Shown here: one piece after another, positions 1 through 17,224 of the stretch
Layout: every line of letters begins with the position of its first letter
Position numbering within the stretch: position 1 is the stretch's first letter
IMG/VR virus record: IMGVR_UViG_3300012928_001161
Location: 1 to 22,152 of that record
Length of the DNA: 22,152 bases
Source of the DNA: a virus
Direction: 5' to 3' (one strand)
Position numbers and translations under genes: made by a program
Notes under the pieces: model-generated
Seen by the model: only the letters and a program-made list of their open reading frames with translations
Databases searched by the model: none
What the model was told of the DNA's origin: nothing

Positions 1-501
1 GATGGTAGTTGTCAATATTCAGAAGCAGGTTTTCACGTTTGGGGAGATAACAATCTAATGAGATGGGGTCAAGGTGTTGCACTTAACAACATAAGTGATA
101 CAACATTTAACACAGGCGATGGCAGTGAACATGGTGGTCATAAAGTTATATTAGACTATCATGGTGACAACAATGTTATTGCTGGATATCAAACTAATGG
201 AAACACAAGTAATCCAGGATATCATACTGCAAATATATGGATATATGGTAACAATCAAGATGTTTGGTGGAAACAAATTAACGATGGAAACAAAACTGTA
301 AACTATAAAAGTTATCAAAACGGTAGTCAAATTAGTGGTGTACAAAAAGGCAACGGTGCTCATACAGCCAATGTTACATTATACGGTTCACAACCAACTA
401 CATTAAACTTAATACAAATGGGTGGTACAGCACAAAGTTATAATCTTAACCAAACATGTCAAACCAGTGGTGGTTGTTCAATCACAATAACTCAAGACTA
501 G
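1..501 (+). CDS. Curlin-repeat-like protein, 5' end outside window
   Basis: The frame is open from base 1, so this is the C-terminal 166 residues of a longer protein; the first internal ATG (58) is not the real start. The sequence is rich in N, Q, G, T and Y. It is built of loose repeats of about 20-25 residues in which a short beta strand is followed by G-x-N/Q, hydrophobics and a Q/N-x-G turn. The two clearest units begin with HTAN (HTANIWIYG and HTANVTLYG). This N/Q-ladder pattern resembles curlin (CsgA/CsgB) amyloid repeats. The C-terminus holds a Cys pair (NQTC...GGCSITITQD). Curlins are secreted amyloid fibre subunits; in a phage this could be a fibre or adhesin, or a host-surface mimic. 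No secretion signal can be judged because the N-terminus is missing. The cyclase follows after 20 nt on the same strand, behind its own late promoter. Family call is by repeat pattern only. Confidence 0.6.
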   Translation, partial: DGSCQYSEAGFHVWGDNNLMRWGQGVALNNISDTTFNTGDGSEHGGHKVILDYHGDNNVIAGYQTNGNTSNPGYHTANIWIYGNNQDVWWKQINDGNKTVNYKSYQNGSQISGVQKGNGAHTANVTLYGSQPTTLNLIQMGGTAQSYNLNQTCQTSGGCSITITQD

Positions 502-508
502 AATAGCA

Positions 509-516
509 AATAAATA
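509..516 (+). promoter_or_regulatory. T4-type late promoter (AATAAATA) for the cyclase
   Basis: AATAAATA matches the NATAAATA late box of T4-like phages. It ends 5 nt before the ATG at 522. With T4 geometry (box at -13 to -6) the transcript would begin on the A of ATG. No Shine-Dalgarno sequence lies upstream of the start. Confidence 0.7.
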
Positions 517-521
517 CATAC

Positions 522-2387
522 ATGAAATGGTTATACAGTGGATGGGCAGTTGTGGTAACAATATGTTTACTAACAACATTAAAAATATATGATCCTACAC
601 CACTACAAAGTTTGCGTCTACAAACATTTGATGCATTACAAAGTTTAGATGAAGTAAAAGAAAGCAATGAAGTTGCTATTATAAACATTGGCGAGAAAAG
701 TTTACAACAATGGGGACAATGGCCATGGCCCAGACAGAATTTTGCACAACTAATACACGATATCAGACAGAACAATGCTGGTATGATTGGAATGACCGTG
801 ATGTTTCCGGAGGCGGACAGATTTGGAGGGGACGAAGTCCTAGCATCTTGGCTGAAAGGGAACGGCATAGTTTTAAGCCAGACCCCAAGTACAAGAGGAG
901 TGAGGAGTACAGGTCCTCACATTGGTACAGGAACGATAGGCCCTTCAAACCCGACCCAATCTTTGCTAGAGTGGCCCAATCTAGTAACAAACATTCCGAT
1001 ACTTGAAGAACAAGCAGAAGGTATAGGTGTACTAGCATCAGCACCGCAACCTGATTTAGTAACAAGAACTTACCCATTAGCAATCACTGTTAATGACAAA
1101 ATTTATCCTAGTTTTGCTATTGAGATGTTAAGAACATTTACGCAGAAACCTAGTTACATGTTAAAGACCAGTGACATAGGAATACAAGAGTTTGCAGTAC
1201 CACCGTTTGATCCTATTGTTACACAACCAGATGGTACAGCATATATACGTTTCAATAATATGTTTAAAGAATACGAATATATCGACATATCTAGTTTACC
1301 AGACCTTACAGGAAAATTTGTTATAATAGGTGTTACAGCAGAAGGTGTACAAAACCCTGTTCCTACACCAAAAGGCAATATGTATCCACAACAAATACAG
1401 GGCCATATGCTACAGAATTTTATCGATGGATCAAATATACAGCGAAATGAATTAAGTGCTTTATATGAGCTCTTAGGCGCCTTGTTGGGTATGATTTTGA
1501 TAGCAATCGCTGTATATAAGTTGCCTTTGCTATGGACAGCACCAATTTCCATGCTTATTTTGGGGTCAGAAGCCTATTTAAGTGTGTGGTTTTACACAAA
1601 TCAACTGGTATTAATGGACGCAACTTTCCCGGTATTAAGTGGATTTTTAGTGTTTACTCATAGTGCATTTAACAATTTTTACAAGCAATACAAGTTGAGA
1701 CAGCAAATCAAAGGTCAATTTGGCACTTATATTTCGCCAGATTATGTAGATATGATAGTAAAAGACCCAAGTCTAATGCAATTAGGTGGGCAAAGAAAAG
1801 AGATGAGTTTCATGTTTGCAGACATAGTTGGCTTTACACCTATATCAGAAACATATATGAAGAAAGATGACCCTGAAGGATTAGTAGAATTAATCAATAG
1901 TTTCTTAGATAAAATGACAAAAATAGTACTCGCCAATGGTGGAACCATAGACAAATATATGGGCGACTGTATAATGGCATTCTGGAATGCCCCAATACCT
2001 TGTGATAATCATGCCGAGATGGCTGTAAAAACTGCTATAGAAATTGAACTACTTGGAGATGAACTTGAAAAAGAAATGGAAAAATTAGGATTACCAAGAG
2101 TAAAATTTGGTACAGGTGTAAACACAGGCACTTGTATTGTTGGTAACATGGGCAGTGAAGCAAGATTAGATTATAGTGTTGTAGGTGATGCTGTAAATTT
2201 AGGTGCTAGATTAGAAGCCGAGACTAGAAAACAAGACACTCCTATATTGATAAGTGAATTTACTTACATGCAACTTACGGATATTGCATGTACGCAGTTA
2301 GATGAAGTTACTGTAAAAGGAAAAGAAGAGCCTGTTAAAATTTATGCTCCACTTATTAATAATGAAATAAGAAAACTTTACAAGTAA
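522..2387 (+). CDS. Membrane CHASE2-domain class III adenylate cyclase
   Basis: This 621-aa protein should make cAMP from ATP at the inner membrane. Residues about 4-22 form an N-terminal membrane segment. Residues about 30-305 look like an extracytoplasmic CHASE2 sensor (EVAIINIGEKSLQQWGQWPWPR, then MTVMFPEADR). Residues about 314-388 give three further membrane helices. Residues about 424-610 are a class III cyclase domain with both metal aspartates (D434 in FADIVGFT; D482 in DKYMGD), purine-reading Lys478, Ser552 where Thr or Asp usually completes adenine recognition, and transition-state N559 and R563 (GDAVNLGARLE). All catalytic residues are present, so it should be active; Ser for Thr is conservative. 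The stop codon abuts the stop of the convergent gene at 2388. The gene is unusual for a phage. It also contains a GC-rich patch (about 791-980) and the only coding AGCT site in the window, both consistent with recent acquisition. The signal sensed by CHASE2 is unknown. Confidence 0.9.
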   Translation: MKWLYSGWAVVVTICLLTTLKIYDPTPLQSLRLQTFDALQSLDEVKESNEVAIINIGEKSLQQWGQWPWPRQNFAQLIHDIRQNNAGMIGMTVMFPEADRFGGDEVLASWLKGNGIVLSQTPSTRGVRSTGPHIGTGTIGPSNPTQSLLEWPNLVTNIPILEEQAEGIGVLASAPQPDLVTRTYPLAITVNDKIYPSFAIEMLRTFTQKPSYMLKTSDIGIQEFAVPPFDPIVTQPDGTAYIRFNNMFKEYEYIDISSLPDLTGKFVIIGVTAEGVQNPVPTPKGNMYPQQIQGHMLQNFIDGSNIQRNELSALYELLGALLGMILIAIAVYKLPLLWTAPISMLILGSEAYLSVWFYTNQLVLMDATFPVLSGFLVFTHSAFNNFYKQYKLRQQIKGQFGTYISPDYVDMIVKDPSLMQLGGQRKEMSFMFADIVGFTPISETYMKKDDPEGLVELINSFLDKMTKIVLANGGTIDKYMGDCIMAFWNAPIPCDNHAEMAVKTAIEIELLGDELEKEMEKLGLPRVKFGTGVNTGTCIVGNMGSEARLDYSVVGDAVNLGARLEAETRKQDTPILISEFTYMQLTDIACTQLDEVTVKGKEEPVKIYAPLINNEIRKLYK

Positions 2388-6282: not shown

Positions 6283-6372
6283 GGAAAGGTGGCTGAGTGG
6301 CTTAAAGCACCTCCCTGCTAAGGAGGAGTACGGGTAACTGTACCGAGAGTTCGAATCTCTCCCTTTCCGCCA
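6283..6372 (+). tRNA. trnS-GCU: tRNA-Ser (anticodon GCU)
   Basis: The acceptor stem GGAAAGG pairs with CCTTTCC (6362-6368), followed by discriminator G and an encoded CCA (6370-6372). The anticodon stem CCTCC/GGAGG (6310-6314, 6322-6326) holds loop CTGCTAA with anticodon GCT at 6317-6319. A long variable arm and the TTCGAATC T-loop give the class II shape of tRNA-Ser. It reads AGC and AGU; AGT is a very frequent Ser codon in the genes of this window, so the tRNA fits phage codon demand. It is the first gene after the sigma70-type promoter. Confidence 0.95.
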
Positions 6373-6611: not shown

Positions 6612-6687
6612 GGGGCCGTAGCTCAGTTGGGAGAGCGTCTGGTTTGCATCCAGAAGGTCGCAGGTTCGACCCCTGTCGGCTCCACCA
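6612..6687 (+). tRNA. trnA-UGC: tRNA-Ala (anticodon UGC)
   Basis: Acceptor GGGGCCG pairs with CGGCTCC (one G-T pair), then A and encoded CCA (6685-6687). The anticodon stem TCTGG/CCAGA encloses loop TTTGCAT, anticodon TGC at 6645-6647. The D-arm TAGCTCAG and T-loop TTCGACC are canonical. It would read GCA and other GCN codons; GCA is a major Ala codon here. It is much more GC-rich than the surrounding DNA, as expected for a tRNA. Its D-arm holds one of only two AGCT tetranucleotides in the window. Confidence 0.95.
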
Positions 6688-6701: not shown

Positions 6702-6953
6702 ATGTCGGAAAGAGATTTAGAAGATATAATAACAGAAGCAATACTAGACTTATTGTTAGATGCCAAAGACAATGGACTAGATTTGCTAACTTTTGAAGAT
6801 GTTTGCAAAATGTTGGGAGTAGATGATTTGTCATTAATGACAAAGTTTGAACAAGGAACAGCATTTACACTTAACAAAGAATATTTAGAAAAATTACGTG
6901 ACCCAGAGGTCAGAAAAGCAATGATAGAATCATTTAAGGCAACTAAACATTGA
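6702..6953 (+). CDS. Small acidic helical protein, function unknown
   Basis: This is an 83-aa protein starting MSERDLEDIITEAIL. The frame is open back into tRNA-Ala, but the ATG at 6702 is chosen because it is the first one outside the tRNA and follows a purine-rich AGAGG. It looks all-helical and acidic at the N-terminus (EDIITEAILDLLLDAKDNG), with a short LTFEDVCKMLGVDD segment that could be a helix-turn-helix-like or EF-type helical pair. There are no catalytic motifs. Its stop overlaps the start of the reductase (TTGA), so the two are translationally coupled. I do not recognise the family. Confidence 0.7.
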   Translation: MSERDLEDIITEAILDLLLDAKDNGLDLLTFEDVCKMLGVDDLSLMTKFEQGTAFTLNKEYLEKLRDPEVRKAMIESFKATKH

Positions 6954-7666
6954 AAACAGAAACAGTAACATGGGTCCATCACTGGACAGATAAAACATTT
7001 AGTTTTAAAACAACACGCAGTCAAACATTCCGTTTTAATAATGGCGAGTTTGCAATGATTGGATTAATGGTAGATGATAAACCATTATTGAGAGCATACA
7101 GTATTGCAAGTGCAAATTATGAAGATGAACTGGAGTTTCTTAGTATTAAGGTACCAGACGGACCTCTTACAAGTCGTTTACAGCATTTAAAAGTAGGAGA
7201 TGAAGTAGTTGTTATGCCAAAGTGTACAGGTACTTTAACAATAGATAATTTAACAGAAGCAAACAATTTATTTTTGTTGTCAACAGGAACAGGCATAGCA
7301 CCTTTTATGAGCATAATTAGAGATCCTCAGACATACGAAAAATTTAAAAATGTTATTTTAGTGCATACAACTAGAACACATGCAGAACACACTTACACAG
7401 ATGTTATACAAGAAATGTGCAATACATTTCCTTTGACATATTATGATACATGTACCCAAGAAGATTACGAACGTAAAGGCAGATTCTGGTTACATATACA
7501 AAACTTTACAGATGGCGGATTTAATAAAGACACTGATAGAGTAATGGTATGTGGTGGACCAGAAATGAATTATGAATGTAGAGATTTTTTTGAAAGTTTA
7601 AATTTTCAAGAAGGAAATTTAGGAGAACCTGGAGACTTTGTTTTAGAAAGAGCATTTGTTGACTGA
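6950..7666 (+). CDS. fpr: Ferredoxin/flavodoxin-NADP+ reductase (bacterial Fpr type)
   Basis: This 238-aa flavoprotein should transfer electrons between NADPH and ferredoxin or flavodoxin. It carries the FAD motif R48-AYS (RAYSIAS), the family signature GPLTSRLQ at 71-78, the NADP-binding TGTGIAPF at 112-119, VMVCGGPEM at 198-206 and the C-terminal ERAFVD characteristic of bacterial Fpr. Bacterial Fpr proteins are about 255 aa, so this one is near full length. The start is TTG at 6950, overlapping the stop of the previous gene. An in-frame TAA lies two codons upstream and the next Met is residue 36, inside the FAD domain, so TTG (or another non-ATG codon here) must be used. It ends the operon that starts at 6244. 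Two radical-SAM genes, which need low-potential electrons, follow directly. A phage-encoded Fpr is unusual. Confidence 0.92.
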   Translation: MKTETVTWVHHWTDKTFSFKTTRSQTFRFNNGEFAMIGLMVDDKPLLRAYSIASANYEDELEFLSIKVPDGPLTSRLQHLKVGDEVVVMPKCTGTLTIDNLTEANNLFLLSTGTGIAPFMSIIRDPQTYEKFKNVILVHTTRTHAEHTYTDVIQEMCNTFPLTYYDTCTQEDYERKGRFWLHIQNFTDGGFNKDTDRVMVCGGPEMNYECRDFFESLNFQEGNLGEPGDFVLERAFVD

Positions 7667-7672
7667 TAAATA
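7665..7672 (+). promoter_or_regulatory. Late promoter GATAAATA for the radical-SAM pair
   Basis: GATAAATA overlaps the end of the reductase gene (its stop is TGA at 7664-7666) and ends 5 nt before the ATG at 7678. The predicted start is the A of ATG; no Shine-Dalgarno site lies in range. Confidence 0.75.
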
Positions 7673-7677
7673 GTTAC

Positions 7678-9435
7678 ATGCTAGAAAAACACAATCCGGA
7701 AAAAGCAAGTGTGGACGTTCTGCTATTTGCGGACTCATTAGATTCTGTTTGGTATTTTGAACATTCAATACCATCATCAGTAGCATATAGTAAAGGCATA
7801 GGCAATGGATTTGACCAAATGTCTGATGAAGAATACAATGAATATTTGGCATCTGTTGAAGAAAAATCACCATCAAATGACAGGGCATTCTTTTACTTGG
7901 ATCAAGCAGATTATTATTCTGCACATCATACTACTAGAGCAATAGCATCTTATAAACTAGCACATGAATTACGCAAACATGGTTATACAGTTCAAGTTAT
8001 TAGCCATTTTTGGTATTTCACAGAAGAAGATTTCAAAAAAGTAATAGACAAGTTTGTTGGTGACAACACATTATTAGTTGGCTTTAGTGCTACATTCCAC
8101 AGTTCAAGTAACCCTTTTGCAGTATTACATAGTCTTTACTTTCCTGCAAGTAGACAAAGACAATTAAAATCTTGGATACATGCAAATAATCCAAACACAA
8201 AATTAGTTGCAGGAGGTACGCCTATAGACACGGATACGTTACTTGACCCAAAATATGATGGACCTTATCATGATATGGATGTCATTAATGTAGGATATGC
8301 AGACGTAACAATATTAGAAATGTTGCAAGACATGAAAGAAGGAATATTTTGGCCCATATATACAGATAAAGGAAGTAGACTAGACATACAAAGCAGTACA
8401 ATGACTTACTGCAAAGAAGATGCAATACAACATGGTGATGAAATGCCTTTAGAACTAGGCAGAGGATGTATTTTTAAATGTAACTTCTGTAATTTTGGAT
8501 TGATAGGAAAAACTAAAGGCACATACACAAGAAATCACATGGTAATACATGATGAATTAAAACGTAATTGGGAAGAAAATGGCATATACAAGTATTGGGT
8601 ATTAGATGATACTTTTAATGAGGATAGCGACAAATTAGAAGTTATAGCAAAACTTAAAGCAGACTCTAACATACCTTTAGAACTTAGTGCATTTTTAAGA
8701 TTAGATTTGCAGAACAGATTAAAACAAGAACAACTTTTAGTTGATTGTGGTTTAAAAAATCCACAATATGGTATTGAAACACTCAACCCTGATAGTGCAG
8801 TTGCAATTGGTAAAGGTTGGAACCCAGAAGAACAAATGGAATATTTAAGGTCAATTAAAAAAGGTGTATTTAAAGATGTTTGGTTGTTTAGTCATTTTAT
8901 AGTAGGACTACCAGAAGACTCACGTGAAAGTTTACACGACATGAGAGAAAAACTATTAGATCCTGAATACAATCCTTTGGATCATTTGTTTATTAATTTT
9001 TTATACATTAAAGAAGTACAGAAATCAGGGTGGCAGTCAGCAGGTGATAACCATGACGGTGGAGGTAGTGCAATAGACAAAGACCCAGAAGGATTTGGAT
9101 ATACGTTTCCCAATTCACATAAAAACAAATTACAAAGTATGGCAAAGGGTTCCTTATCAAAATTTTGGCGTAATAAACATGGCATAAGTTATGAAGGTGC
9201 ACAAAAATTTTCCCAAAAATTAAATCAAGATTTTAATGAAAGTAGAGGATACAAAAAGTTTCAACCTACAAGTTGGCATAAAATACCTAAAGGTGCTGAA
9301 AAATCTTCTTGGATGTTAAACTATTGGGATAATTACTTTACTGATATTATGTCAATAAAAGAACATACTAGATATAATTCTGTACAATGGATTCAAGAAG
9401 GCAAGGTTACAGAATTTAAACCTATGAGTAAATAA
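7678..9435 (+). CDS. Radical SAM protein with B12-binding-like N-terminal domain (paralogue 1)
   Basis: This 585-aa enzyme has the radical-SAM cluster motif C264-x3-C268-x2-C271 in ELGRGCIFKCNFCNFG, which binds a 4Fe-4S cluster that cleaves S-adenosylmethionine. Residues about 10-230 look like a Rossmann-type domain found before radical-SAM barrels (SYKLAHELRKHGYTVQVI, then LVAGGTPI and VINVGYADVTILEML), as in B12-binding radical-SAM families. I see no D-x-H-x2-G cobalamin ligand motif, so B12 may not be bound. Barrel landmarks include YWVLDDTFN (306-314), FLRLDLQNRLKQ, YGIETLNPDSA and GLPEDS. A C-terminal extension (about 440-585) has no recognised motif. The stop overlaps the start of paralogue 2 (TAATG). 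The substrate is unknown; the reductase just upstream is a plausible electron donor system. Confidence 0.87.
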   Translation: MLEKHNPEKASVDVLLFADSLDSVWYFEHSIPSSVAYSKGIGNGFDQMSDEEYNEYLASVEEKSPSNDRAFFYLDQADYYSAHHTTRAIASYKLAHELRKHGYTVQVISHFWYFTEEDFKKVIDKFVGDNTLLVGFSATFHSSSNPFAVLHSLYFPASRQRQLKSWIHANNPNTKLVAGGTPIDTDTLLDPKYDGPYHDMDVINVGYADVTILEMLQDMKEGIFWPIYTDKGSRLDIQSSTMTYCKEDAIQHGDEMPLELGRGCIFKCNFCNFGLIGKTKGTYTRNHMVIHDELKRNWEENGIYKYWVLDDTFNEDSDKLEVIAKLKADSNIPLELSAFLRLDLQNRLKQEQLLVDCGLKNPQYGIETLNPDSAVAIGKGWNPEEQMEYLRSIKKGVFKDVWLFSHFIVGLPEDSRESLHDMREKLLDPEYNPLDHLFINFLYIKEVQKSGWQSAGDNHDGGGSAIDKDPEGFGYTFPNSHKNKLQSMAKGSLSKFWRNKHGISYEGAQKFSQKLNQDFNESRGYKKFQPTSWHKIPKGAEKSSWMLNYWDNYFTDIMSIKEHTRYNSVQWIQEGKVTEFKPMSK

Positions 9436-11282
9436 TGACTGTTTGTTTAAAAGATCCAATAAAAGATCCAGGCATAAACTGGAATGAGTATGCTAAAAGT
9501 GAAAAAGTAGAAATCACTGTGGATGTAAATGACGATTTCGAACATACTCCTGTAGACGTTTTAATTTTTGCTTCTGATCCACAAAGAGGCAGAGAGTATG
9601 AAATGTTTCTTAAAGAAATATATCAGCCAGGCGACACAATGTCAGACCAAATATTTCAAGAATATATGGAAAGAGCAGAAAAATATGAACGAGATTGTTG
9701 GGAACTACCTACTAGAAAAGAACTTATGCTCAAACCTGATGGTCAAGCCTTCATGCAAAATAAAGGATATTATTTAACTTGGCCCTCCATAGACCAACAT
9801 GACGGTCGTGCTATGGGTAGTGATAAAGTTGCCCATGAAGTTAGAAAGTTAGGATATACAGTACAAGTTATACATAATTTATTACATGTATCTGAAGATA
9901 CTGTACATAAAATTATACAAAAATTTGTAGGTAAAAATACTAAAGCAGTAATGTTTGGTCAAGTATTTTCTTTTCATAAGGATATGTTTGGATTAATGAA
10001 TACTGTATTTTTTCCTCCTAGTAGACAACATAAAGTTAAAGAGTGGATTTTAGAACAAAACCCAACTGCAAAACTTGTTATGGGAGGTGCAAAATTTAAT
10101 TACACTAAAGAATTTGGAGGTGTTAGTAAAAATAAAACACCTTTAGATGATATAGATATTCGTATGTTTGGTTGGGCAGACGTAACTATCAGAGATATGT
10201 TGATAGATTTAGAACAAGGTAATCCTAAACCATTTTACAGTGACCCAAAAAGCATGTTGGATATTTACAATAGTTCTATGGAATATTTTGATGAAGATGT
10301 AATTCTTCCTAATGCAAGAATAGGATTAGAATTAGGTAGAGGATGTATTTTTAAATGTTCTTTTTGTGAATTTGATTTGATAGGAAAAACAAAAGGCACA
10401 TACACAAGAAGCACTTCTCGTCTCGAAGATGAACTAAAACGTAATTGGGAAGAATACGGAGTTCATAGATATTGGATTACTGATGATACATTGAATGATG
10501 ATACTGCAAAGTTAGAACGCATGGCAGATATACGAATTAGAAATAACATTCCTTTTAAGTATGCATGTTTTTTAAGATTAGATTTACAGCATAGATTAAA
10601 ACAAACTGATATTTTACTTGAAAGTGGACTTGAATATGGTCATTATGGTATTGAAACACTTAATCCTGATAGTGCCGCGGCTATCGGTAAAGGGTGGCAT
10701 CCTGAAGAGCAAATGGCATTTATTAGAGAACTAAAAGAAGATAAATTTAAAGATGTATTTTTACATTCTAATTTTATGTACGGACTTCCTGAAGATAGTT
10801 TAGAAATACTAAGAGACATGCACAACAAATTAATAGATGTAGAGTACAACAAATTAGACCAAATAGTTGTACAAAGTTATGTAATCAGAGAACCAAAAAT
10901 TAATTATCCAAAATCAGACCCAACAAAAGTTACAAGTGAAATTCAAGAAACTTTAGAAGAGCAAGGTTACACAATTACAACAGACCGTAAAGTTTGGGAT
11001 AGTATTTTAATGACAAAAAATAAACATGGACTATCCACTCAACAATCGCATCATATATCTCAACAAACTTCTATACAGTTTAGACATAACAAATATTGGA
11101 AAGAGCATTTTGATCCTGTAAAAAAATCTAATGATTTGAGACTACAAATGAGAAAAGACTATCAACAATACTTTGATAAAATTTTTAGTATTAAAAAACA
11201 TAATAGATATGAAACAGTTACTTTGTTTAATGAAGATGCGCCAAGAACACTATCTGTTCAAGAATATAAAGAATCACTTTAA
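9435..11282 (+). CDS. Radical SAM protein with B12-binding-like N-terminal domain (paralogue 2)
   Basis: This 615-aa protein is a tandem paralogue of the preceding gene. It shares GRGCIFKC-x-FC-x-F-x-LIGKTKGTYTR (C304, C308, C311), LRLDLQ-x-RLKQ, YGIETLNPDSA-x-AIGKGW-x-PEEQM and a C-terminal SIK-x-H-x-RY segment. The N-terminus has about 30 extra residues before the Rossmann-like domain (VDVLIFASD at 40-48; KVAHEVRKLGYTVQVI at 131-146). SIDQHDGRAMG (118-128) is near where a cobalamin His could be, but it is not the classical D-x-H-x2-G. It is translated from an ATG overlapping the stop of paralogue 1, implying stoichiometric or complex-forming products. Divergence in the N-terminal and C-terminal parts suggests different substrates or a heteromeric enzyme. 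Confidence 0.87.
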   Translation: MTVCLKDPIKDPGINWNEYAKSEKVEITVDVNDDFEHTPVDVLIFASDPQRGREYEMFLKEIYQPGDTMSDQIFQEYMERAEKYERDCWELPTRKELMLKPDGQAFMQNKGYYLTWPSIDQHDGRAMGSDKVAHEVRKLGYTVQVIHNLLHVSEDTVHKIIQKFVGKNTKAVMFGQVFSFHKDMFGLMNTVFFPPSRQHKVKEWILEQNPTAKLVMGGAKFNYTKEFGGVSKNKTPLDDIDIRMFGWADVTIRDMLIDLEQGNPKPFYSDPKSMLDIYNSSMEYFDEDVILPNARIGLELGRGCIFKCSFCEFDLIGKTKGTYTRSTSRLEDELKRNWEEYGVHRYWITDDTLNDDTAKLERMADIRIRNNIPFKYACFLRLDLQHRLKQTDILLESGLEYGHYGIETLNPDSAAAIGKGWHPEEQMAFIRELKEDKFKDVFLHSNFMYGLPEDSLEILRDMHNKLIDVEYNKLDQIVVQSYVIREPKINYPKSDPTKVTSEIQETLEEQGYTITTDRKVWDSILMTKNKHGLSTQQSHHISQQTSIQFRHNKYWKEHFDPVKKSNDLRLQMRKDYQQYFDKIFSIKKHNRYETVTLFNEDAPRTLSVQEYKESL

Positions 11283-11289
11283 CCACCAT

Positions 11290-11297
11290 AATAAATA
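11290..11297 (+). promoter_or_regulatory. Late promoter AATAAATA for the FabZ-like gene
   Basis: AATAAATA ends 6 nt before the ATG at 11304, in the 21-nt gap after the second radical-SAM gene. Confidence 0.65.
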
Positions 11298-11303
11298 CCT
11301 ATT

Positions 11304-11726
11304 ATGGAACTACCACACAGACACCCAATAGCCTTAATCGACGAACATCGAATCATAAACGATGAAGAAGTTGAAGCAACATTTATGGTACATAATGCAC
11401 ATCCAGTATTGGAAGGTCACTTCCCACATGTAAAAATTTGGCCTGGTGTTTATATTGTTGAAGGAATGAATCAATGTGCAGGATTACATGCACTACACTT
11501 AGCAGAAAAAGAAATTGGTAAAGTTAAACATGAAGATTATGTAACTTTTGTAACAAGTGTAGATAAATGTAAATTTAGATTTCCTGTCTTTCCTGGAACA
11601 AGATTAAGGTATGAAGCAAAATTAGTTAAACGTAAAATGCAACACATGTTCTATGATTGTAAAGTTTTTGATGGTGAAAGCCGTGTAGCATCTGCTACAA
11701 TAGGTTTGACAGCCAAAAAACTGTAA
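11304..11726 (+). CDS. FabZ-like hot-dog 3-hydroxyacyl thioester dehydratase
   Basis: This 140-aa single hot-dog domain protein is the length of FabZ. The start ELPHRHPIALIDE matches the FabZ entry strand (LPHRYPFLLVD). The catalytic His39 (in EGHF) and Glu53 (in IVEGMNQ) are present with the 14-residue spacing of E. coli FabZ (H54/E68). The usual FPG-x-P-I-x-PG is changed to FPHVKIWPG. FabZ removes water from 3-hydroxyacyl-ACP in fatty acid synthesis; relatives act on other hydroxyacyl carriers. Residues FVTSVDKCKFRFPVFPGT form the substrate-facing sheet typical of the family. It follows the radical-SAM pair with its own late promoter. It may adjust host lipid supply or take part in a dedicated acyl modification; the G-to-H and P-to-W changes near the active site hint at altered substrate. 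Confidence 0.85.
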   Translation: MELPHRHPIALIDEHRIINDEEVEATFMVHNAHPVLEGHFPHVKIWPGVYIVEGMNQCAGLHALHLAEKEIGKVKHEDYVTFVTSVDKCKFRFPVFPGTRLRYEAKLVKRKMQHMFYDCKVFDGESRVASATIGLTAKKL

Positions 11727-13008: not shown

Positions 13009-13776
13009 ATGGCACAGAGAATAGACCAAATAGGCTACAATAACAGAGACGAAATCATTAAAGAGATTCAGTTAAGATTGGCTGATGGAATGGTTGATGT
13101 TGAGTTAGATAGAGAGCATTACGACATAGCAATCAATAAGGCTATACAAAAGTATAGACAATTGAGTAGTGGTAGTGTAGAAGAAGCAGTTATTTTTATT
13201 CAAACCCAAGACGGTATTACAAAATATGTTTTACCTGATGAAGTTATAGACGTAAAACGTTTATACAGAAGAGGTATTGGTACTAATAGTGGCGGTGGCA
13301 CAAATTTTGATCCATTTGATGTTGCATTTAACAATATGTACATGCTACAAGCAGGGCAAATAGGTGGACTGGCAGTATTTGATGCATTTGCACAATACAA
13401 AGAAACTATAGGTCGTGTGTTTGGTAGTGAGTACAACTTTACATTCAATAGAAATACAAAAGAATTAACCATATTAAGAAACGTAGCACATGCTGAAGAT
13501 ATTGCAGTAGGAGTTAATAACTTCATCCCTGAAAGTGTTTTAATAAAGGACGTTTACGCCGCTGACTGGCTATCTAATTTTGCACTAGCACAAAGTAAAA
13601 TGATGTTAGGCGAAGCAAGAAGCAAGTTTCCAGGCGGACTTCCTGGACCAGGCGGAGCAACAACACTAAACGGTGATGCCCTTAAGGCTGAAGCAATAAC
13701 TGAAATGGATCAATTGATTGCCGGCTTACACAACATGGAAGAAGGCAACTCACCGCTAGGTTTTGTTATGGGATAA
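13009..13776 (+). CDS. gp13: T4 gp13-like neck protein
   Basis: In T4, gp13 forms the neck with gp14 and helps to attach the tail. This 255-aa protein shows the gp13 plan: an N-terminal helix pair EIIKEIQLRLADGMVDVEL, then HYDIAINKAIQKYRQLS (T4: QIYDCIQRALELYGEYH), a central region with VYAADWLSNFALAQSKMMLGEAR, and a C-terminus ending SPLGFVMG (T4: DPPFGILVG). GG-x-PGPGGATTLNGDALKAEA near residue 205 matches T4 LPGGVTIDGQRLIEEA. The ATG at 13009 is chosen from the late box; a GTG five codons upstream is rejected. T4 gp13 is 309 aa, so this is a compact form. Its stop overlaps the start of the first oxygenase-like gene (TAATG), so a structural gene and the cargo operon are coupled. Confidence 0.82.
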   Translation: MAQRIDQIGYNNRDEIIKEIQLRLADGMVDVELDREHYDIAINKAIQKYRQLSSGSVEEAVIFIQTQDGITKYVLPDEVIDVKRLYRRGIGTNSGGGTNFDPFDVAFNNMYMLQAGQIGGLAVFDAFAQYKETIGRVFGSEYNFTFNRNTKELTILRNVAHAEDIAVGVNNFIPESVLIKDVYAADWLSNFALAQSKMMLGEARSKFPGGLPGPGGATTLNGDALKAEAITEMDQLIAGLHNMEEGNSPLGFVMG

Positions 13777-14588
13777 TGCAAGATAATACCTATTGGGACA
13801 TACCCGAATTACTAGACTTTCCATTACCTTTTACAGCAGAAGAACTTTTATTACAAGAAGATTTTGACTTACAAGATGGATACCAAGATCCTGAGCATGT
13901 ACTAAGACATTCAAAAAAGATTGGTTGGACTACTAATCAAGAAGCACCTAATTTACAAATAGGTTGGCTAACAGATAAAAGCATTTCAAGACTTTTACAA
14001 GAGTGGGCAAAAGATATTTTCCCACAAGATTTCTTTTCACAAACATATTATAAAATGCCAAACAAAACATTTCCTGCAACTTTAGTTATGACTAAAGCAG
14101 GTGAAAGTACAAGATGGCACTATGAAGGATTTTATCCTTGGACAAATTTGACAGAACAACTAAGCAATCCAGGAAGAACAAGTTGTGTTCTTAATATTAA
14201 ATTAAGTGGCAAAACAGATAATGATATAGTTTTTGGTCAGCCTAGTGAAAAGGTTGTAAATACAGTTGAAAGATTGTATAATCAAAGAACACTAGAACAA
14301 GATGTACAATGGTGTGAGAATAAAAATATTAGAAGTAACTTTTACAGTGATGCTATAATGACAATAGATGAAGAAGTTACAGAAATAGATAGAAAAGTTA
14401 CATATGATTGTCCTTTCTTATTAAATTTAGGACATTTAGATACGCATCCTAATCCTTGGCATAGAGTAGAAAACAGTAGAACTGCAGAGCCAAGAATAAG
14501 TTTTAGGTTAATGTGTAATGAAAAATATTCAATGAAGCATTGGGTTGACTTACACAAAGAAGGAAAGTTATTAAATGCAACAAGTTAA
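13776..14588 (+). CDS. 2-oxoglutarate/Fe(II) oxygenase-like protein, paralogue 1 of 4
   Basis: This 270-aa protein is the most divergent of four tandem paralogues. It shows an H-x-E...H...R arrangement: H115 and E117 in TRWHYEG, H229 in NPWHRVEN, and R240 in EPRISFRLM. In clavaminate synthase-like 2-oxoglutarate oxygenases an H-x-E/D pair plus a distal His bind iron, and an Arg about 10 residues later binds 2-oxoglutarate; the strand pattern here (VLNIKLSG, FLLNLG, PRISFRL) fits a double-stranded beta helix. The N-terminal LLDFPLPFTAEELL motif is shared with the others. It begins on the stop codon of gp13 and overlaps the next gene by 14 nt. Substrate unknown; enzymatic identity is inferred from the residue pattern, so a non-enzymatic jelly-roll role remains possible. 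Confidence 0.6.
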   Translation: MQDNTYWDIPELLDFPLPFTAEELLLQEDFDLQDGYQDPEHVLRHSKKIGWTTNQEAPNLQIGWLTDKSISRLLQEWAKDIFPQDFFSQTYYKMPNKTFPATLVMTKAGESTRWHYEGFYPWTNLTEQLSNPGRTSCVLNIKLSGKTDNDIVFGQPSEKVVNTVERLYNQRTLEQDVQWCENKNIRSNFYSDAIMTIDEEVTEIDRKVTYDCPFLLNLGHLDTHPNPWHRVENSRTAEPRISFRLMCNEKYSMKHWVDLHKEGKLLNATS

Positions 14589-15522
14589 AAATCATCTTTG
14601 CTCTTTTCCGGAATTGGAACTTCCAATCACTGTGGAAGATATATTTACAGATGATGATTACGAACTTATATACGATAGAGCAAGATTCAATAAAAAAGTA
14701 GACATAGTTGAACATCCAGATTTATTTGGCTGGACTATGGCACAAACAGAAAAAATGCATTGGATGTATAGTCCCAATGAACATCAACTTGCTGGTACAG
14801 ATATTATATTAGAAAAAAATCAAGATTTTGCAGACCTTACATTTGAAGAAAGAAAATATTTAGGTTACAGACCTCCTACAAGCATAGGTGTAATTACAGA
14901 CAAAAACTTAATGTATAAGTTAAGAGAATATGCACAAGATACTTTTCACGAAGATTATCTTGCAGATATTTGGAGTTTTATGGGTAAAAAAATTGTCCCT
15001 ATTACACTAATTGGCTTTAGTGGCCCAAGCACATTCCATACTGAAGGCTTAACTGGTTGGAGAAAAGTTGCAGACGAAAGTCTTTTAAAAGATAGAATTG
15101 AAACATCGCGTACAAGTGCTGTAGTAAACTTTAGATTGATAGGCGACCCAGATGATTGTTCTATAGAAGTAGCAGAGCCTGATAAGTACTTTACAGAAGT
15201 GTATGATAATTTAAACAAAGAATACATAACAAAGTGGGAACAAGATGGCAAAGAACCAGAAACAATGTGGTCAGAGGGCAGAGGTATATCTGTATCTTCA
15301 AGTATTGACCAAACATCAAGTGACGAAATGTTAAGTCATCTAACACCTTGTGGGAAGATAGATGGTTATCATCATCCTTTTATTTTAAATTTATCATCAT
15401 GGCATAGAGTAAACATCAAAACAGAATCTCCAAGAGTAAGTTTAAGATTTATGGGACATAAAAAACATACATTTGATTACTTACAACAGTTAATGGATGA
15501 AGGTAGGTTTTTAAAATGTTAG
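14575..15522 (+). CDS. 2-oxoglutarate/Fe(II) oxygenase-like protein, paralogue 2 of 4
   Basis: This 315-aa protein is the longest of the four. Proposed iron ligands are H155 and E157 (STFHTEGL) and H277 (SSWHRVN); R287 or R291 (SPRVSLRF) would bind 2-oxoglutarate. It has the family strand AVVNFRLIGDPDDCSIEVAEP (about 182-202), close to the INFRLLGD-x-EGS segment of paralogues 3 and 4. An insertion of about 30 residues near 225-260 (EPETMWSEGRGISVSSS) sets it apart. The N-terminus FPELELPITVEDIFTDDDYELIY resembles the start of the others. Start and stop both overlap the neighbouring genes, so the four are one translational unit. Substrate unknown. Confidence 0.6.
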   Translation: MQQVKNHLCSFPELELPITVEDIFTDDDYELIYDRARFNKKVDIVEHPDLFGWTMAQTEKMHWMYSPNEHQLAGTDIILEKNQDFADLTFEERKYLGYRPPTSIGVITDKNLMYKLREYAQDTFHEDYLADIWSFMGKKIVPITLIGFSGPSTFHTEGLTGWRKVADESLLKDRIETSRTSAVVNFRLIGDPDDCSIEVAEPDKYFTEVYDNLNKEYITKWEQDGKEPETMWSEGRGISVSSSIDQTSSDEMLSHLTPCGKIDGYHHPFILNLSSWHRVNIKTESPRVSLRFMGHKKHTFDYLQQLMDEGRFLKC

Positions 15523-16340
15523 GTTGTTATTGTGATTGTCCTGGTATTGAGTTACCTTTTACTAATGATATTCTTTCTCAACAAGATTTAGATATGATTT
15601 ATGGTAATACAGAAATACCTAAAACACCTTCTATACAAACTGAAAAAATAAATTGGTATGCAAACTGGTCCACAACAGAGTGGTCAAAGGATGATTTATT
15701 AAATGGTGGAGCAATAATCACAGACCAACAATTAAAAAAAGATGTTTGGGAATGGCTACATGAAACAATACATCCGGAATATTTTCAGAAGATTTGGAAC
15801 ATGGCAGGAAGAAAAACTCCGCCTGTTTCTATTTTGTGTTTCTCAGAATCAAGTGCTTGGCATAGAGAAGGGCCTATACAGTTTCCAGAAAATTTGCCAC
15901 AACATATAAACAAAGATATCGTTGCTGGTCCTAGAGCACCAGCAGTAATTAATTTTAGATTATTAGGTGACCCAGAAGGTAGCAGTTTAGAATTTGCAAA
16001 ACCACAAGATACTTTAAACAATGCAGAACAAGAGTGTATTAACAAATACTTTGATACTTGGACAGAAGATGTCAACGGAGAACTACATGCTACAGAACAT
16101 GAAGGTGTAGTATTCACAGCGGCTCAACATTGGCTTGGAGAAACATATAATTGGCAAAACAATTTAACAAAAATAACAGAACATGTGGGTATGCATAATC
16201 CATATATTGTAAACTTGTCTAAATGGCATAGAGTACTTACAAATGGAGAACCACGTGTTACTTTTAGAATACATGCTAATACAGATTTAACTTTTGAAGA
16301 CATTGAACGTTTGCAAGAAAATGGAGAGTTTTTCAAATGA
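15516..16340 (+). CDS. 2-oxoglutarate/Fe(II) oxygenase-like protein, paralogue 3 of 4
   Basis: This 274-aa protein is closest to paralogue 4. Both start with a short Cys-containing segment (MLGCYCDCPG here, MNGCFIDCPD there). Proposed ligands are H116 and E118 (SAWHREGP), H238 (SKWHRV) and R247 (EPRVTFRIHANTDLTF). The core APAVINFRLLGDPEGSSLEF (141-160) and GMHNPYIVNLSKWHRV (225-240) are nearly identical in paralogue 4. The N-terminal C-x-C-x-C could bind metal or form disulphides. The ATG overlaps the stop of paralogue 2 (ATGTTAG) and its own stop overlaps paralogue 4 (ATGA). Substrate unknown; one possibility from context is modification of a virion or host protein late in infection. Confidence 0.62.
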   Translation: MLGCYCDCPGIELPFTNDILSQQDLDMIYGNTEIPKTPSIQTEKINWYANWSTTEWSKDDLLNGGAIITDQQLKKDVWEWLHETIHPEYFQKIWNMAGRKTPPVSILCFSESSAWHREGPIQFPENLPQHINKDIVAGPRAPAVINFRLLGDPEGSSLEFAKPQDTLNNAEQECINKYFDTWTEDVNGELHATEHEGVVFTAAQHWLGETYNWQNNLTKITEHVGMHNPYIVNLSKWHRVLTNGEPRVTFRIHANTDLTFEDIERLQENGEFFK

Positions 16341-17224
16341 ATGGATGTTTCATAGATTGCCCAGACGTAACTTTTCCTTTTACAGCAGATGATTTTTTTG
16401 GCGACTTTGATTATGACTTAATATATGGTAGGATTCCTATACCTGGTGATTTAACATTAATGGGTAAAACAGTTAAATGGGCAAATTGGTCAACAGATAA
16501 TGTAGAACTTATACAAGGTACAAGATTTGAAAATGAAGAACAAGATTTACTGTTTAATAGTGCAGGATTAATTTATGATAACAAATTAAAGCACGATGTT
16601 TGGGATTGGATGAATGATACTTTCCATCCAATATATTTTCAAGAGTTATGGAAAACTGGCTTAGGTACTGCCCACCCACCTGTAACTGTTTTATGTTTTT
16701 CAAGAACAACAGGTTGGCATAAAGAAGGACCTGTACCAATACCAGACAATGTACCTGCAGATTTTGATACAAGTTATGTTACTAATTGGAGACCACCAGC
16801 AGTAATTAATTTTAGATTATTAGGAGATATAGAAGGAAGTGAATTACAATTTGCTGAGCCCAGTGATTCTATGAAAGTAGCAGAACAAGAACTTATACAA
16901 AAGTTTTTTGATACTAGTATATTAAGAGCCCAAGAAGACAAAAATCCTTTACCTAATAGTGCTACCTTACCAACAATTATAAAACATAGGTCTATGGTAA
17001 TGGATGCAAGACAGCATTGGATACAACAAGATACCTATTTGAAATCTTTAACACATAAGGCTACACATTATGGAATGCACAATCCATACATTGTAAATAT
17101 TTCTGAATGGCACAGAGTTATTACTAATGGCACTCCCAGAGTTACAATGAGAGTACATGCTAATACAGATTTAACATTTAGACAAATAGAAGAATTGGTT
17201 GACGCCGGAAAATTTTTTAAATAA
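16337..17224 (+). CDS. 2-oxoglutarate/Fe(II) oxygenase-like protein, paralogue 4 of 4
   Basis: This 295-aa protein is the last of the tandem set. Proposed ligands are H128 and E130 (TGWHKEGP), H259 (SEWHRV) and R268 (TPRVTMRVHANTDLTF). It shares PPAVINFRLLGD-x-EGS and the end (L-x-x-G-x-FFK) with paralogue 3. Compared with that paralogue it has inserts around 55-80 and 195-220. The start overlaps the paralogue 3 stop as ATGA. Its own stop (TAA, 17222-17224) lies inside the late box before the kinase gene. All four paralogues keep H-x-E, distal H and R, so none looks like a dead copy. Retention of four intact copies implies separate jobs, or a hetero-oligomer. Confidence 0.62.
   Translation: MNGCFIDCPDVTFPFTADDFFGDFDYDLIYGRIPIPGDLTLMGKTVKWANWSTDNVELIQGTRFENEEQDLLFNSAGLIYDNKLKHDVWDWMNDTFHPIYFQELWKTGLGTAHPPVTVLCFSRTTGWHKEGPVPIPDNVPADFDTSYVTNWRPPAVINFRLLGDIEGSELQFAEPSDSMKVAEQELIQKFFDTSILRAQEDKNPLPNSATLPTIIKHRSMVMDARQHWIQQDTYLKSLTHKATHYGMHNPYIVNISEWHRVITNGTPRVTMRVHANTDLTFRQIEELVDAGKFFK

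Follow-up and report, generated by a model that had tools for sequence, protein, structure and literature searches.

What is a membrane-bound nucleotide cyclase doing in the genome of a marine tailed phage? The question is raised by one gene in IMG/VR virus record IMGVR_UViG_3300012928_001161, of which we analyzed the whole stretch from position 1 to 22,152 (the window, a 22-kb virus fragment). We give a probability of roughly 0.6 to the reading that this gene encodes a membrane cyclase belonging to a curli cassette, made late in infection and turning the state of the envelope, or of curli and FecR, into cyclic AMP (cAMP). The cyclase would close a curli (type VIII secretion) cassette carried by the phage, with the order csgF, csgG, curlin 1, FecR-domain protein, curlin 2 and CHASE2-cyclase, and its product would sit in the inner membrane of the host, the CHASE2 part facing the periplasm and the class III (IIIb-type) cyclase part the cytoplasm. 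It would be made from a T4-type late promoter, with transcription starting at the start codon, and most likely it would sense envelope state or the assembly of curli and FecR in the periplasm and respond with cAMP in late infection.

The cyclase and its conservation

The gene and its parts lie at the following positions:

522..2387, plus strand: CHASE2 / transmembrane / class III nucleotide cyclase, 621 aa (Pfam, PHROG and fold)
561..1490, plus strand: predicted periplasmic CHASE2 sensor domain, residues 14-323 (Pfam PF05226, E 1.9e-39)
1446..1661, plus strand: C-terminal membrane segments, residues about 309-380 (hydropathy and model helices)
1695..1784, plus strand: sensor/output junction and apparent site of catalytic-domain exchange, residues about 392-421 (identity jumps and conflicting domain trees)
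1797..2333, plus strand: catalytic domain, residues 426-604 (PF00211 Guanylate_cyc, E 4.6e-19)

The open reading frame (ORF) starts with ATG, has no internal stops and matches phrog_35576 with an E value of 2.5e-186, and both of its Pfam matches are far over the cut-off. Hydropathy places one transmembrane segment at residues 4-23 and others within 309-380, and an AlphaFold model (mean predicted local distance difference test score, pLDDT, of 87.7) has long helices at 312-333, 336-361 and 368-401. Together, the PF05226 match, the transmembrane segments and the model give the architecture of a CHASE2 sensor protein with a predicted cytoplasmic output domain. The original prediction for this gene, of a full-length protein with sensor, membrane and cyclase parts, is thereby borne out.

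The class III assignment draws on PF00211, on the fold and on the catalytic residues, which comprise the metal-binding pair D434 and D482, the base-contacting K478, and the transition-state residues N559 and R563 of the NxxxR motif. All five are where the original prediction had placed them, and the catalytic domain is intact by sequence and fold. The best solved match to the catalytic half of the model is CyaB of Pseudomonas aeruginosa (3r5g; E 6e-17, template modelling score 0.88 by target length), which is also the top PDB match by sequence. D434, K478, D482 and R563 are present without exception in 85 phage and 78 bacterial homologues, and N559 is conserved except in four phage proteins, where it is S. 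In comparisons with seven relatives, the ratio of nonsynonymous to synonymous changes (dN/dS) lies at 0.08-0.18 for the whole gene and at 0.06-0.11 for the catalytic domain, so the gene is under purifying selection and kept for function.

The adenine-specifying position, as defined in mammalian cyclases, is occupied by S552, which we take to be class IIIb-like, as in class IIIb bacterial enzymes. The combination of K478 with S552, as in class IIIb adenylyl cyclases, suggests that the substrate is ATP, and cAMP is thus the likely, though not the certain, product.

The curli cassette in phages and bacteria

The only cassette gene that the window holds besides the cyclase is curlin 2, and the genes upstream of it were read from relatives:

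1..501, plus strand: second curlin-repeat gene (cur2) of the cassette, 5' end lost at the contig end (phage cur2 profile, E 8e-62)

Its product ends in ...SITITQD, and cur2 takes the equivalent position in the cultured phages HTVC008M and Melnitz. Two relatives that are 94% identical (L004 and L005) show the whole cassette, and through them the window cyclase is placed after csgF, csgG, curlin, FecR and curlin. In 29 of the 30 phage loci with at least 7 kb of upstream sequence, the cyclase comes after csgF, csgG, curlin and fecR; only L016, which breaks off within fecR, departs from this. The curlin-like neighbour that had been pointed out earlier is therefore real and part of a conserved cassette. 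The comparison with enterobacterial curli and second messengers that had accompanied it is superfluous, because the link between cyclase and curli is physical and genetic, through the same cassette in the same gene order.

Misassembly had been raised as one circumstance that would undo the prediction. A chimeric contig is ruled out because independent contigs (L004, L016 and others) have identical neighbours and junctions, and the related cultured phages HTVC008M and Melnitz carry the gene and its junction with the cassette. We give very little weight to a non-functional passenger gene or a chimera as the explanation of the locus: it would fit the lack of a known receptor in 12 phage records and 58 putative SAR11 genomes (see below), and it is at odds with the invariant catalytic residues, with a dN/dS well under 1 and with a junction shared by cultured phages and numerous independent contigs. 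Two contigs with this cyclase (L084 and L085) have been binned into Flavobacteriaceae and Synechococcus metagenome-assembled genomes (MAGs) in a public genome set; phage-type genes adjoin the cyclase in both, and we judged them to be phage contigs and set them aside as bacterial examples.

Genuine bacterial counterparts do exist. A Caulobacteraceae MAG (L086) has the order csgF-csgG-curlin-curlin-FecR-CHASE2 cyclase, flanked by bacterial genes, which from their sequences are glycosyltransferases, an S9-type peptidase and a TonB-type receptor, and a second genome (G502) has the same operon with a cyclase 93% identical. The Caulobacteraceae operon (L086/L192, L206) has the gene kinds of the phage cassette, with the cyclase last and a curlin-like C-terminus on FecR; it differs in that both curlin genes precede fecR, the neighbours are of chromosome type and the cyclase is 39% identical to that of the window. 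In the sampled Caulobacteraceae-family genomes, csgF was found in 13 of 149 and the curli-FecR-cyclase arrangement in 2, the other 11 having no cyclase match on the csgF contig; in a class-wide sample, it was absent from five of the six genomes with csgF over the family cut-off (all but G011). FecR and cyclase thus occur in bacterial curli operons, rarely, contrary to a published statement. That two bacterial genomes have the same gene kinds in one operon speaks for a functional unit and against a chance association.

FecR and the cyclase are also paired in other bacteria without curli. Another 77 bacterial loci gave 15 FecR-like matches, of which 11 lie within 2.1 kb of the cyclase (32% expected, p 0.001) and six within 300 bp (p 4e-5). 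FecR of the phages has the PF04773 domain, and all 39 phage proteins checked (L002, L004, L028 and others) have the motif [VI]x[VIL]xQ near the C-terminus, compared with 8 of 2132 other ORFs. Most second curlin proteins share this ending, and the L086 FecR ends in VINVTQD. The FecR tail may be a strand of the curlin kind by which FecR is attached to the fibre or to its export route; such a tail would tie FecR to the fibre and speaks against an iron-regulator role here. Together with the bacterial operon, it offers a testable case for a cyclase that belongs to curli assembly itself.

The cyclase might instead work independently of curli, with CHASE2 sensing envelope stress or the timing of lysis and the gene having been acquired along with the curli genes. 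We regard this as possible if rather doubtful. In the window lineage the gene is preceded by a late-promoter motif of its own, most bacterial CHASE2 cyclases lie outside curli operons, and several phages have further genes separating curlin 2 from the cyclase, so tight coupling is not absolute. Against independence stand the gene order kept in deep phage lineages and two bacterial genomes, and the pairing of FecR with the cyclase in bacteria even where curli is missing.

Lineage, output-domain exchange and predicted late expression

The window carries PHROGs for tail sheath, tail tube, a gp15-like sheath stabilizer and a head-tail adaptor further along the contig, which agrees with the tailed-phage origin first proposed. 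Its tail sheath is closest to PA5oct, Atu_ph07 and RaK2-type phages (up to about 48% identity) and its tail tube to PA5oct and Atu_ph07 (about 45%); these relatives are large phages of 286-490 kb, partial records aside. Among cyclase carriers, the window sheath is 52-76% identical over its full length to those of G617, G005, G010, G616 and G009 (57% to G005, a 250-kb contig), and about 41% identical to those of HTVC008M, Melnitz, G001, G002 and G003 in the C-terminal fifth only (residues 705-917 for HTVC008M). On structural-gene similarity, the window thus falls outside the Pelagibacter T4-like myovirus (HTVC008M) group, and by these comparisons the phage belongs to a different myovirus lineage, akin to the large phages of the PA5oct/Atu_ph07 type.

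The two halves of the cyclase do not share one history. The window and L035 are 75% identical in CHASE2 and 35% in the catalytic domain, while L035 and Melnitz are 85% identical in the catalytic domain and 32% in CHASE2. The window compared with L038 and L043 has about 43% identity in CHASE2 and 83% and 77%, respectively, in the catalytic domain; compared with L022, the values are 80% and 50%. In the pairs L035/Melnitz, L043/window, L038/window and L022/L028, the step in identity falls at residues about 392-421, where the last membrane helix gives way to the catalytic domain. Trees of CHASE2 and of the catalytic domain conflict with strong support. In approximately unbiased (AU) tests, for groups picked after the trees had been seen, a single group for the 17 rows of the window's CHASE2 clade was rejected on catalytic data (p-AU 6e-6), and keeping Melnitz together with L035, L036 and L040 was rejected on CHASE2 data (p-AU 4e-64).

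Three output types can be distinguished: type A in the window and HTVC008M, with little or no tail; type B in Melnitz, L035 and L040, with S559 and a tail of 75-77 aa; and type C in L022, L028 and L033, with a 67-aa tail where checked. In L035, L036, L040 and L003, type B has Ser for the transition-state Asn and Asp at the base-specifying position, so its activity or specificity may differ. G010 (L036) combines a window-type sheath with a Melnitz-type output, and G003 (L044), a near twin of L043, combines the other sheath with a window-type output. Judging from these patterns, phage lineages have swapped the output domain at a fixed junction, leaving a natural series of chimeras. Since the exchanges cross two phage lineages, they would imply that these once had common hosts.

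Exchange of an output domain between lineages is also what arms-race selection would predict, and a role in defence or counter-defence had been proposed for this gene. The cyclase product could act as a decoy or drain in nucleotide-based immunity of the Pycsar/CBASS type, and phage class III cyclases do have a domain in common with Pycsar PycC. We consider such a role improbable. The PADLOC matches to PycC are limited to the cyclase domain and were judged to reflect that shared class III domain, the family has a CHASE2 membrane sensor, unlike PycC, and the putative hosts have streamlined genomes. In a Pycsar system the cyclase adjoins a PycTM or PycTIR effector; the neighbours here are curlin and phage structural genes, and no Pycsar effector gene was seen. 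A defence function was set aside accordingly.

For the curli-cassette cyclase, late expression is the remaining element, and it draws on a motif directly upstream of the gene:

509..516, plus strand: late-promoter-like AATAAATA (cyanophage form NATAAATA), core ATAAATA at 510-516, 12 nucleotides (nt) before the ATG, no Shine-Dalgarno sequence
510, 7666 and 11291 (plus strand), 6228 and 2615 (minus strand): ATAAATA sites, 12-14 nt before start codons, no Shine-Dalgarno sequence

T4 late-promoter spacing would put the start of transcription at the A of the ATG. The motif corresponds to a T4-type late promoter (TATAAATA or NATAAATA at about -10), with the start site being predicted. The late promoter of the original prediction thus holds in the cyanophage form, whereas the exact T4 form TATAAATA does not occur in the window. 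NATAAATA is the cyanophage late promoter, and the motif is known from S-PM2 and T4 (PMC2984593).

In the window, ATAAATA stands exactly 12 nt ahead of the ATG for the cyclase and a radical SAM gene, and at 12-14 nt for three others. In G005 (L209-L221), the spacing is exactly 12 nt in 15 of 204 genes; 43 ATAAATA matches lie within 60 nt upstream of genes, and the 10-16 nt band holds 16 of them, compared with at most five in any of five control permutations. The motif is found at 12 nt in 20 of 76 phage cyclase genes, Melnitz among them, and in five genes of the HTVC008M segment, csgF included. The 12-nt spacing is strongly non-random in this phage family. If the motif acts at T4 spacing, we predict leaderless late mRNAs for the cyclase and the other ATAAATA genes, and the cyclase is probably expressed late; no earlier report of such leaderless late messages turned up in the literature searched. 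The motif suggests that marine T4-type phages have many of them. Sheath and tube genes carry AGGAGAT, making two classes of start region alongside the ATAAATA genes.

Elsewhere in the window, the immediate neighbours are phage context outside the cassette, and their order is matched in L016:

2388..6214, minus strand: convergent downstream genes, comprising small ORFs, a NUDIX hydrolase, a gp15-like sheath stabilizer and a virion structural protein (Pfam, PHROG)

Positions 6950-11726 hold, in one run, a gene resembling ferredoxin-NADP reductase, a pair of B12-type radical SAM genes (about 600 aa) and a gene for a FabZ-like dehydratase, which looks like a lipid or cofactor modification cluster; the reductase-like gene is also near the cyclase in L006 and L028. 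Four tandem genes of 270-315 aa at 13776-17224, apparently paralogous, have no Pfam match, and their recurring WHxEG and WHRV...PR motifs suggest 2-oxoglutarate-Fe(II) oxygenases. A tRNA-Ser(gct) lies at 6283-6372 and a tRNA-Ala(tgc) at 6612-6687.

The putative reader of cAMP and comparison with known systems

Several points, in addition to the intervening genes, weigh against a curli-cassette cyclase that signals through cAMP. S552, rather than D, stands at the base-specifying position, and the guanylyl cyclase Cya2 is among the structural matches, so the base may be other than adenine. A search for cAMP-binding effectors, which had been recommended earlier, found no cyclic nucleoside monophosphate (cNMP)-binding domain (PF00027) in 12 phage records, the complete HTVC008M and Melnitz included. 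Neither a class III cyclase nor a CRP-like protein was found in 58 genomes of an order labelled putative SAR11, which was assigned indirectly (1.2 Mb, 28.5% GC and a SAM-V riboswitch upstream of a metY-like gene); the host of the window phage may differ. Four of the 58 encode a protein of 870 aa that carries a weak cNMP domain and does not resemble CRP, and crp-fnr genes are present in some SAR11 (PMC12816887). Reprogramming of the host through cAMP and CRP is therefore not supported by these searches, and the earlier proposal that cAMP alters host carbon metabolism finds no support by way of the usual receptor.

Genomes of the G014 order (L130 and others), small marine alphaproteobacteria of about 1.3 Mb and 32% GC, have up to nine cNMP-binding domains each, unlike the putative SAR11 order. 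Single-cell genomes of the AG-337 type, which belong to the G014 order, were first suspected to be SAR11 and were dropped on GC and cNMP content.

A phage second messenger in a host seemingly without a cyclase or a standard receptor raises the question of what reads cAMP. One tentative answer is a marine-phage envelope-sensing unit made up of curli fibre, curlin-tailed FecR and CHASE2 cyclase, in streamlined hosts, with a reader outside the known cNMP-binding families and an output domain repeatedly recombined at a fixed junction.

The cyclase as such is not new, because HTVC008M and Melnitz carry the gene and the cassette has been described. Pelagimyophage curli genes were reported by Zaragoza-Solas et al. 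2020 (PMC7029224) and those of Melnitz by Buchholz et al. 2022 (PMC9004378); the csgF-csgG-curlin-FecR-curlin-cyclase cluster of pelagiphage podoviruses and myoviruses is the subject of Wittmers et al. 2022 (PMC9599517), so the phage curli-cassette cyclase is a kind already known and published in 2022. Outside phages, CyaB of P. aeruginosa (3r5g) and CyaC of Spirulina platensis (1wc1) have a class III catalytic fold like that of the window cyclase; they differ in sensor architecture and in being bacterial rather than phage proteins, and CyaB has T at the position of S552.

HTVC008M gp019 (NC_020484, a Pelagibacter phage) is a full-length CHASE2-cyclase with 42.9% identity over 98% to the window protein, is annotated as an adenylate/guanylyl cyclase and, like the window gene, closes the cassette. 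In HTVC008M, however, the late motif stands before csgF and not before the cyclase, and the phage is of another myovirus lineage. Protein 104 of Melnitz EXVC044M (an OM43 methylophage, PMC9004378) ends a curli operon and has the late motif 12 nt ahead of its ATG, as in the window. The cyclase of the Melnitz phages is 33% identical to the window protein, and protein 104 differs in its catalytic type (B), in having S for N559, in its tail of about 75 aa and in a catalytic domain 34% identical to that of the window.

The cluster of Wittmers et al. 2022 (PMC9599517) shares its gene kinds and order with the window lineage, and its type VIII secretion and curli genes have an alphaproteobacterial affinity. 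To that cluster we add a further phage lineage, exchange of the output domain and two bacterial operons with FecR and cyclase, which, like the cNMP-domain negatives, the 12-nt spacing of the late motif and the FecR tail, are new as far as could be checked.
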